Below are positions 22,865-25,754 of a stretch of 64,000 nucleotides of DNA, one piece after another. The position numbers and the translations under genes are program-made. Origin of the DNA: Alphaproteobacteria bacterium (GTDB lineage: Bacteria; Pseudomonadota; Alphaproteobacteria; Rhizobiales; Devosiaceae); contig JAHJQZ010000015.1 of NCBI GenBank assembly GCA_018818925.1, positions 1 through 64,000 of the forward strand, written 5' to 3'. The notes under the pieces were generated by a model. That model made no database searches and was not told where the DNA came from. It saw only the letters and a program-made list of their open reading frames with translations. Positions within the stretch are counted from its first letter, which is position 1, and each line of letters starts with the position of its first letter.

Positions 22865-23773
22865 ATGCGCTATCTCGAAACCGCCCGCTTCATCGACGCC
22901 GTCGCCAGGGCCGGCTCGATCCGTCGCGCCGCCGACACGCTGTCGATCACCTCGACGGCGCTCAATCGCCGCATCCTTGCCGTCGAGGAGGAACTGGGCG
23001 TGCAGATCTTCGAACGCCTGTCGCATGGCGTCCGCCTGTCGAGCGCCGGGGAAATCCTCATCCACGCCATTCGTAACCAGATATCCGACATCGAGCGGGT
23101 GAAATCGCAGATATCCGATCTGTCCGGCGAGCGGCGCGGCCATGTTGCCATCGCCTGCTCCCAGGCGCTCTTGCCCTATTTCCTGCCCATGCAGATCGCC
23201 CAGTATCGCAAGGATCACCCCAACGTCACCTTCGACGTTCACCTGCGCGACCGCGAAGCCGCCGAGCGGGCCCTGGCCGACCACACCGCCGACATCGCCC
23301 TGGTCTTCGAGCCGGTACGCATGGCCGAGTTCCATACCATTTTGCGGGTGCGCCAGCCGGTCCACGCCGTCATGGCGGAAAACCATCCGCTCGCCGGCCG
23401 GGAGCGAGTGCGCCTGTCCGACTGTCTCGACTACCCGCTCGCTGTCCCGACCGCCCCCTATGGCGTCAGGCACCTGCTCGACATTGCCGTGCTGTCGGCC
23501 CAGATCAGGCTCAACCCGGTCATCGAATCGGACAGTTTCGAGTTCTTGCGCAACCTTGCCGTCGCCGAGAACATCATCTCGTTCCAGATCCCCATCGGGT
23601 TGTCCAACATCACCCTGACCGGGCTGATGACCTCGCGCCCGCTCGATCCGCGCGACGTTCCGGCCGGCGTTCTGTATATGGGCCAAATGCGCGGCCGCAC
23701 CCTGCCCGTCGCCGCCGCTCGCTTCGCCGCCCAGCTCTCGGCGGCACTGTCGACGCAATTCGAGGTGTGCTGA
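22865..23773 (+). CDS. LysR family transcriptional regulator
   Basis: 302 residues: N-terminal winged helix (FIDAVARAGSIRRAADTLSI, residues about 8-60), then a periplasmic-binding-protein-like effector domain. The start at 22865 follows an AGGAAA ribosome site; the open frame extends 24 codons upstream into the repeat. Divergent from the BMP-transporter operon, so probably its regulator, responding to the transported compound or a breakdown product. The inducer is not predictable. Confidence 0.9.
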   Translation: MRYLETARFIDAVARAGSIRRAADTLSITSTALNRRILAVEEELGVQIFERLSHGVRLSSAGEILIHAIRNQISDIERVKSQISDLSGERRGHVAIACSQALLPYFLPMQIAQYRKDHPNVTFDVHLRDREAAERALADHTADIALVFEPVRMAEFHTILRVRQPVHAVMAENHPLAGRERVRLSDCLDYPLAVPTAPYGVRHLLDIAVLSAQIRLNPVIESDSFEFLRNLAVAENIISFQIPIGLSNITLTGLMTSRPLDPRDVPAGVLYMGQMRGRTLPVAAARFAAQLSAALSTQFEVC

Positions 23774-23903: not shown

Positions 23904-23932
23904 TTGCCGGTTTAAGAGGTGGCGCCTATATT
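23904..23932 (+). promoter_or_regulatory. Promoter of candidate structured RNA
   Basis: TTGCCG (23904-23909) and TATATT (23927-23932) are separated by exactly 17 bases, a good sigma-70-type promoter by alphaproteobacterial standards. The predicted start is near 23939. It reads toward the structured region and terminator that follow. Confidence 0.6.
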
Positions 23933-23964
23933 GACGCGGCAACTCGGAACGCGTGGAGGATTTT

Positions 23965-24006
23965 GTGAAGGTCGTTGTGTCCAGCCCGGCTGGACGGACC
24001 GACTGA
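23965..24006 (+). CDS. Possible leader peptide (13 aa)
   Basis: GTG start with GGAGG five bases upstream, encoding MKVVVSSPAGRTD. The strong TCCAGC/GCTGGA stem lies inside the frame, and its stop falls just before the three-way junction. Translation through this frame would melt the first stem, as attenuation leaders do. Alternatively the frame is chance. No regulatory codon run is evident. Confidence 0.25.
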   Translation: MKVVVSSPAGRTD

Positions 24007-24092
24007 ACCTGAAAACGCCCTGACGGGCGAAATTGCGGTGGCGCGACGATGCGCCGCCGGCAGGTTGTGTCGGCCTCATGCCAGCCCGCGAT

Positions 24093-24121
24093 CCGGACGC
24101 CCGATCGGCGCCGGGTTTTTT
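24093..24121 (+). terminator. Intrinsic terminator before rsgA
   Basis: CCGG-A-CGCC / GGCG-CCGG stem with one bulged A and a CGATC loop, followed by six T. It ends the candidate structured RNA 45 bases before the rsgA start. Confidence 0.75.
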
Positions 24122-24165
24122 CATGCGCCTTGCGGCGCGGAACCGACATCGCTGGTATCACGACA

Positions 24166-25227
24166 ATGACATCGCAAAATCCCGATCTGGCCGAGCTCGG
24201 CTGGACTTCTTTCTTCGCTTCACAGACCACGGCCGACTGCGTGGAGCGCGCCATCCCGGCGCGCGTCATGGCCGTCCATCGCGGCCTCATCAACATTGCC
24301 GGCGACGGCTTCGAAGAGACCATCGCCTCGCATCTCGACGACGCCTGCACCGACAAGGACTACCCGACCGTCGGCGACTGGCTGCTGATCGAGCGGCATG
24401 CCCGCCGTCCGCTGCGCCTGCTCGGGCGCAGGAGCCTGTTCTTTCGGCGCGCGCCGGGATCCGGTCGACGGCTGCAGCTCATCGCCGCCAATGTCGACAC
24501 GCTCTTCATCGTCTCGTCCTGCAATGCCGATTTCAACATCGCCCGGCTCGAGCGCTATCTGGTGCTGGCGCGGGAAGCCGGGGTGACGCCCGTGGTCGTT
24601 CTGACCAAGGCCGACATTGCCGACGCGCCCGAGGACTACGCGGCAAAGGCGCGGGGCCTGCAGTCCGGCCTGCTTGTCGAAACGGTCAACGCCCTCGATC
24701 CCGGCGATATCGGATCGCTCTCCGCCTGGTGCGGCAAGGGCCAGACCGTCGCCTTCGTCGGCTCGTCCGGCGTCGGCAAGTCGACCCTGATCAACACCCT
24801 GACCGGAGCGCAGGACATCGCGACCAAGGGCATCCGCGAGGACGATTCCAGAGGCCGCCACACCACCACCGGCCGGCAGATGCACCGGCTCGCCGAAGGC
24901 GGCTGGCTTCTCGACACGCCGGGCATGCGCGAGCTTCAGCTCACCGACGCGGCTTCGGGCATCGAAAGCGTCTTCGAAGATATCGTAGCGCTGGCGGCGC
25001 AATGCCGCTTCGCCGACTGCAGCCATGACGGCGAGCCCGGCTGCGCCATCCGCGAAGCGCTCGACACCGGAACGCTCGATGCAGAACGCTACAGGCGCTG
25101 GCACAAGCTTGCCGCCGAGGAAGCGTTCAACTCGGCGACCCTTTCCGAGCGCCGCGCCCGCGACAAGGCCTTTGGCAAGATGGTGAAATCGGTCATGAAG
25201 GACAAACAGCGCGACAAACGGCGCTGA
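24166..25227 (+). CDS. rsgA: Small ribosomal subunit biogenesis GTPase RsgA
   Basis: 353-residue circularly permuted GTPase that checks late 30S maturation. Order: OB-fold region, G4 LTKADI near residue 145, G1 GSSGVGKST at 199-207, the GRHTT G2 segment, G3 DTPGMRE, and a C-terminal zinc knuckle (CRFADCSHDGEPGC). A Lys/Arg-rich tail ends DKQRDKRR. The start at 24166 puts the family start in register; the frame is open upstream into the structured RNA but without family similarity. A terminator-like stem just upstream may control its level. Confidence 0.95.
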   Translation: MTSQNPDLAELGWTSFFASQTTADCVERAIPARVMAVHRGLINIAGDGFEETIASHLDDACTDKDYPTVGDWLLIERHARRPLRLLGRRSLFFRRAPGSGRRLQLIAANVDTLFIVSSCNADFNIARLERYLVLAREAGVTPVVVLTKADIADAPEDYAAKARGLQSGLLVETVNALDPGDIGSLSAWCGKGQTVAFVGSSGVGKSTLINTLTGAQDIATKGIREDDSRGRHTTTGRQMHRLAEGGWLLDTPGMRELQLTDAASGIESVFEDIVALAAQCRFADCSHDGEPGCAIREALDTGTLDAERYRRWHKLAAEEAFNSATLSERRARDKAFGKMVKSVMKDKQRDKRR

Positions 25228-25379: not shown

Positions 25380-25754
25380 ATGCGCTTTAGCGGAAATCTG
25401 GCCGGGCTTTTCGGGGCGTTTCTGGCCTTGATCATGCTGCCAGCCGCCGCCCAGGCGGAGACCTTGACCTTCAATGTCAAGTCCAACCACGAAAACGTCG
25501 TGAGCCTGGAATTCTACTCGCAGGATCGCAGCGTTGCCTGGCCCGGCGGCGGCGAGGTCTATGTCATCGACGACTATCAGATTCATACCTATTCGCTCTC
25601 GTGCCAGCGCGGCGAATCCATCTGCTACGGCGCCTGGGTCCGCAACTCCAACTCCGAATACTGGGGCGTCGGCTACAACGACACCCAGGGCTGCGAAAGC
25701 TGCTGCTGGGTCTGCGACGGGGGCGAGACGGCGGTGATCAACCTCAACTACTGA
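25380..25754 (+). CDS. Small secreted cysteine-rich protein, function unknown
   Basis: 124 residues with a clear Sec signal peptide (cleavage after AQA, residue 26) and an AGGGAGG ribosome site. The mature part is rich in aromatic and polar residues and has six Cys: Cys75, Cys82 and a CxxCCxxC cluster at 105-112 (GCESCCWVC). The even number suits three periplasmic disulfides, or the cluster could hold a metal. I do not recognise the family. Upstream is a plain 150-base gap after rsgA. Confidence 0.75.
   Translation: MRFSGNLAGLFGAFLALIMLPAAAQAETLTFNVKSNHENVVSLEFYSQDRSVAWPGGGEVYVIDDYQIHTYSLSCQRGESICYGAWVRNSNSEYWGVGYNDTQGCESCCWVCDGGETAVINLNY

Follow-up and report, generated by a model that had tools for sequence, protein, structure and literature searches.

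What is encoded in the gap between the end of a LysR-type regulator gene (near 23773) and the start of rsgA (24166)? No gene is found there before the rsgA start in the window (the whole stretch of 64,000 nucleotides analysed), as a preliminary description had stated. That description placed in the gap, at 23904–24121, a complete stand-alone transcription unit, and offered as a second possibility a translation-sensing attenuator for rsgA. The second possibility is now well supported, by a conserved uORF, by a pairing between the two starts with compensatory changes, and by a position-dependent opening computed in 14 leaders. The first is not supported: essential partner strands lie inside rsgA, relatives do not have the T6 terminator, and no match to an Rfam family was obtained. 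The element is best read as the leader of the rsgA mRNA, extending from the promoter at 23904 into codon 6 of rsgA (24182). An end at 24121 cuts off half of it, because the 3′ partner strands, at 24151–24182, lie within the ribosome site and initial codons of rsgA. The best explanation is a translational attenuator of rsgA controlled by the uORF, to which we give a probability of about 0.66. The features are as follows.

23904–23932, + strand: sigma-70-like promoter TTGCCG-17-TATATT (from sequence; like-placed sites in the relatives L114, L143, and L192)
23955–23959, + strand: Shine–Dalgarno GGAGG of the uORF (duplex with the anti-Shine–Dalgarno, −9.3 kcal/mol)
23958–23968, + strand: 5′ strand of helix P1b, GGATTTTGTGA, spanning the uORF start codon; pairs with 24172–24182
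23965–24006, + strand: uORF of 13 codons with GTG start, VKVVVSSPAGRTD; stop TGA at 24004–24006
23971–23978, + strand: 5′ strand of helix P1a, GTCGTTGT, uORF codons 3–5; pairs with 24163–24170
23979–23985, + strand: segment 1, GTCCAGC; pairs with GCTGGAC at 23989–23995 (CCAG...CTGG in relatives)
23988–23995, + strand: segment 2, GGCTGGAC (uORF codons P-A-G); pairs with segment 1 or segment 3
23999–24073, + strand: three-way junction between the uORF and segment 3 (from the fold)
24078–24086, + strand: segment 3, ATGCCAGCC; pairs with segment 2 (via CCAGCC) or segment 4 (via ATGCCAGC)
24090–24121, + strand: terminator-like hairpin and T6 (fold and sequence; not conserved in relatives)
24151–24158, + strand: segment 4, GCTGGTAT, the rsgA ribosome-site box (ctggtgaaccacaATG in relatives)
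24163–24170, + strand: 3′ strand of P1a, ACAATGAC, including the rsgA start codon
24166–25227, + strand: rsgA, small-subunit GTPase A, divergent second clade
24172–24182, + strand: 3′ strand of P1b, TCGCAAAATCC, rsgA codons 3–6

Several parts named in the preliminary description are present. The 17-spaced promoter is the sole promoter-like site in the 600-base region (shuffles expect 0.1), and the three nearest relatives carry TTG(C/T)CG-17-TA 34–38 nt before the uORF (32 nt in the window). The 13-codon frame has its ribosome site, with GGAGG ending five bases upstream of the GTG. The fold of 23904–24121 (−101.5 kcal/mol, z = −2.5) contains the three-way junction, with arms 23999–24011 and 24061–24073 and hairpins 24016–24029 and 24035–24058; the uORF stop codon sits in its closing helix. 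The bulged-stem terminator also exists (11 pairs, one bulge, six T), but it is peculiar to the window, whereas the uORF and the alternative helices are conserved. Its effect may be some partial termination or a reduced basal level, restricted to this genome. The Rfam scan proposed at that stage was run and gave no family match at gathering score (6S, suhB, mmgR-type, and r-protein leaders included); the best sub-threshold match, RsmW, at 22.5 bits against a cut-off of 52, was dismissed as weak.

The rsgA product is an RsgA GTPase (TIGR00157, PF03193), the only RsgA in this genome and a divergent-clade copy. In the gammaproteobacteria examined, a canonical RsgA (∼240–302 bits, TIGR00157) is accompanied by a second divergent one (∼140–170 bits). 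Most alphaproteobacterial carriers have the divergent RsgA alone, without a canonical copy. The divergent gene is patchy (36/136 genomes in its own family, 11/40 in another order), the proteins closest to the window RsgA (68%–71%) are from other orders, and some copies reside on plasmids and large replicons; horizontal spread would be the simplest reading of this distribution. After rsgA, at 25380–25754, an ORF of 124 aa has a start resembling a signal peptide and contains several cysteines; no Pfam or NCBIfam match was found for it.

A search with the leader DNA against 60 relatives returned no homolog, only itself and a 21-base terminator match behind rplS (24106–24126, in the terminator arm, identical to 1501–1521 of L002, just after an rplS-like gene). 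The leader was therefore approached via its neighbor gene, rsgA. Among 164 distinct rsgA upstream regions, 39 contain a Shine–Dalgarno-led uORF of 7–22 codons matching M.{0,3}[IV][IV], a figure that is partly post hoc since the pattern was suggested by the first examples. The same rule yields 0–4 per dinucleotide shuffle and one hit in 334 upstream regions of other long ORFs. For canonical rsgA (same gammaproteobacteria and E. coli), none of 13 upstream regions has any uORF meeting the Shine–Dalgarno rule. Thus, by conservation of the predicted uORF, a short ORF with its own ribosome site precedes the target gene, as in uORF attenuators. The nearest uORFs read VIVVVSRMAGTVA (L192), MSVVVPEQAGMTT (L114), and MSVIVPVQAGMTA; others are VTAIVLQPAGGPTG (L126), MIVAVTQTVGASH (L127), MIVVTTLRAGIC (Rhodobacteraceae), and MIVIHTHPVELNYI (Vibrio). 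Judged from sequence, the putative ribosome-sensing arrangement before rsgA is recurrent in other bacteria. It appears to be undescribed; in the literature library searched, no paper dealt with an rsgA leader or rsgA uORF.

In the whole-leader fold of the window, GGAUUUUGUGA pairs with UCGCAAAAUCC and GUCGUUGU with ACAAUGAC, so that the start of the uORF is joined to the start of rsgA. This start-to-start helix has 11 + 8 bp in the window and its nearest relatives, with compensatory changes between species: GCGGAUU/AAUCCGC and GUCGUUGUG/CACAAUGAC in L114, GUCAUUGUG/CAUAAUGAC in L143, GAAAUUU/AAAUUUC in L197, GGAUAU/AUAUCC in L196, and GAUUU/AAAUC in L122. Within one genus, the synonymous rsgA Ile codons ATC, ATT, and ATA are each matched by a change in the uORF spacer. 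The leaders had been selected by uORF and box 4 before the helix was known, and several are close kin, not independent. Pairing was tested by cross-species swaps of partners, unconstrained duplexes and shuffled middles being uninformative for GC-rich leaders. The window helix (−27.6 kcal/mol) ranks at 0.00 against such swaps, and all six window-like subgroups rank at 0.00–0.10. None of 500 shuffles attains the covariation score of 0.198, and pairing falls from 81% in the true register to 37%–54% when the register is slid. RNAalifold, unprompted and on two separate sets, recovered both the start-to-start helix and helix 2:3; applied to all 13 leaders jointly, it returned no structure, since their middle regions fail to align. 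The start-to-start helix is confined to the nearest relatives of the window; most Rhodobacteraceae and gammaproteobacteria do not show it.

Segment 3 has two complements: the 3′ half of the uORF (segment 2) and the ribosome site of rsgA (segment 4). Segments 2, 3, and 4 are GGCTGG, ATGCCAGCC, and GCTGGTAT in the window; TGTTGGTGCGAG, TTCGCGCCAGCG, and GCTGGTG in L127; CGGACGA, TCTCGTCCG, and TGGACGAGA in L004; and TTCAGGCAG, TTGCCTGAA, and TAGGCAAA in L024. With partners swapped between unrelated leaders, helix 3:4 drops from −13.1 (own) to −10.7 kcal/mol and helix 2:3 from −12.8 to −9.9 kcal/mol; the mean swap rank is 0.26 for each (0.5 expected), with 3:4 at chance in one large Rhodobacteraceae subgroup. 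Helix 3:4 is formed in the whole-leader fold (dot-bracket) of the window.

To compute what it costs to open the rsgA start region, a thermodynamic model was used in which a fixed mask, set at each uORF codon in turn, represents the ribosome. For 14 window-like leaders, the mean cost is 12.7 kcal/mol when free, 4.6 with the mask at codon 4, and 12.8 at the stop (4.6–5.4 on codons 1–5, about 13 on the last codons); in the window itself, it is 15.7, 5.0, and 13.6 kcal/mol. The difference between free and codon 4 amounts to 8.1 kcal/mol in real leaders versus 0.2 in shuffled ones. A difference of at least 4 kcal/mol in both directions occurs in 13/14 leaders versus 3/168 shuffles, and the switch holds with smaller and larger masks in 12/14. 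As computed, then, alternative structures cover or free the target ribosome site by ribosome position. The strong form of the switch is computed for the group of the window only; in Rhodobacteraceae, the uORF is conserved and the computed switch is weak or absent.

The mechanism that we favor would operate as follows. The leader mRNA would start ∼25 nt before the uORF. Without a ribosome on the uORF, 23958–23978 would pair with 24163–24182 and segment 3 would cover segment 4, keeping rsgA off. With a ribosome positioned on or close to the first uORF codons, the start-to-start helix would be broken and segment 1 covered; segment 2, left free, would take segment 3, exposing the rsgA start and turning rsgA on. 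A ribosome on the last codons would cover segment 2, allowing 3:4 and then the start-to-start helix to re-form, which would turn rsgA off again. According to the model, translation of rsgA thus probably takes place only as long as a ribosome is delayed early in this decoy uORF. The likely inducing situations are those in which ribosomes dwell early in the frame, as with early-acting translation inhibitors or slow-maturing initiation complexes.

Other explanations share parts of this evidence. Translational coupling alone, in which pause-free translation of the uORF keeps the start-to-start helix open and rsgA output tracks initiation capacity (the supply of active 30S), is rather unlikely. It would fit with the opening of the rsgA start by any ribosome on codons 1–7 in the model, and with the N:S ratio of uORF substitutions among close pairs, 34:12 against a neutral ∼2.5:1 (2.47:1), in which, with small counts, no purifying selection on the peptide is seen. 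However, a ribosome on the last codons recloses rsgA through the separately conserved 2:3/3:4 alternative, which coupling alone does not need. The same neutrality departs from what is expected of an erm arrest peptide. In such an arrest, a specific drug or metabolite would act together with a nascent peptide containing the conserved Ile-Val to stall the ribosome, which would in turn induce rsgA. The recurrence of Ile-Val near the uORF N-terminus in alpha- and gammaproteobacteria, and the start of segment 2 ∼10–15 nt after the Ile-Val codon in most leaders, speak for arrest; nevertheless we hold it improbable, as the Ile is always ATT (37/37 cases), with bases that pair with the rsgA start, and some Rhodobacteraceae have uORFs of just 2–3 codons. 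The constant ATT and its pairing imply that RNA pairing explains the Ile-Val motif in the group of the window. Since, in addition, the peptide is not under visible purifying selection, the position of the ribosome, and not the peptide, is probably the signal sensed.

A transcription attenuator acting through the T6 terminator has comparably poor prospects. The hairpin is good (−16.9 kcal/mol with its six T), and 44 bases separate it from rsgA; yet the modeled terminator probability is 0.87–0.90 in every ribosome state, without switching, and relatives of the same architecture have no comparable T run. With a terminator neither conserved nor switching, and peptides without a codon run, the leader does not fit an amino-acid attenuator of the trp or his kind. 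The uORF attenuator was preferred to both a peptide-specific arrest and a regulated terminator. Least probable is a stand-alone small RNA that acts in trans and has a promoter and terminator of its own: promoter, structure, and terminator do come in order, but the conserved pairing partners inside rsgA, the lack of an Rfam match, and the lack of a leader DNA homolog in the 60 relatives argue against it.

In attenuators of the erm type (ermC/ermB), a uORF comes with 1:2, 2:3, and 3:4 helices that exclude one another, and 3:4 hides the downstream ribosome site. The rsgA leader has the same elements, with 3:4 on the downstream ribosome site; unlike ermC/ermB, it shows no peptide-level constraint, has the extra start-to-start helix, and precedes a gene that is not an rRNA methylase. 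Similar, too, is the toiL uORF of E. coli topAI-yjhQ, at whose start ribosomes are arrested by tetracycline and retapamulin (PMC12121999). There, parts of a short uORF pair with the next gene's ribosome site, and a ribosome stalled at the start or within the early codons frees that site (PMC12121999), as computed here for rsgA. Further, toiL answers several antibiotic classes and not one arrest peptide (PMC12121999); the rsgA leader, according to the model, would likewise need no single arrest peptide. It differs in serving a ribosome-assembly GTPase (30S assembly) instead of a toxin–antitoxin pair, in pairing start codon to start codon in addition to the 1-2-3-4 alternative, and in its conservation across many genera.

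In Streptomyces coelicolor, the RsgA paralog SCO6149 is raised under translation-targeting antibiotics as part of the WblC/WhiB7 regulon, and wblC itself has a uORF attenuator (PMC7157823). Control there is by the transcription factor WblC, unlike in the window, and no such leader before rsgA is known from that account (PMC7157823). By analogy with this drug-raised paralog, a stress role for the second-clade RsgA is plausible. In gammaproteobacteria, the canonical rsgA lacks the leader beside a leader-bearing copy; the leader would therefore mark the divergent clade as probably stress-induced, a question that concerns RsgA paralogs in general. Tentatively, and with somewhat less than even odds, we propose a family of RNA switches that pair the beginning of a decoy ORF with that of a ribosome-assembly gene and thereby let the cell sense ribosomes slowed at initiation or in the first steps of elongation; no particular nascent peptide would be needed, and second-clade RsgA would be made in response. 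If so, this RsgA would be a translation-stress factor and not a housekeeping one, and ribosome assembly would be linked to direct sensing of ribosome location on an mRNA. The leader offers exact base pairs for mutation.

Some variation in context and leader type is observed. In gammaproteobacteria with canonical and divergent RsgA (G759, G766, G841, G853, G886, and others), the uORF leader is present before the second only, among those examined. In Rhodobacterales, the rsgA leader directly follows an SRP RNA gene in L015, L018, L019, L020, L021, and L024, and also in L027, L029, L031, L037, L043, and L067. A second apparent leader type, mostly in Rhodobacteraceae (L007, L009, L129, L131, L133, L136, L146, L148, L150, L188, L189, and L198), has a minimal uORF of 2–3 codons (MSR, MAR, MSW, or MS) with a strong Shine–Dalgarno, followed directly by a GGGAGGC...GCCTCCC-like hairpin. 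These minimal uORFs, alphaproteobacterial and within this rsgA clade, sit ∼190–230 nt before the alignment-based rsgA start.
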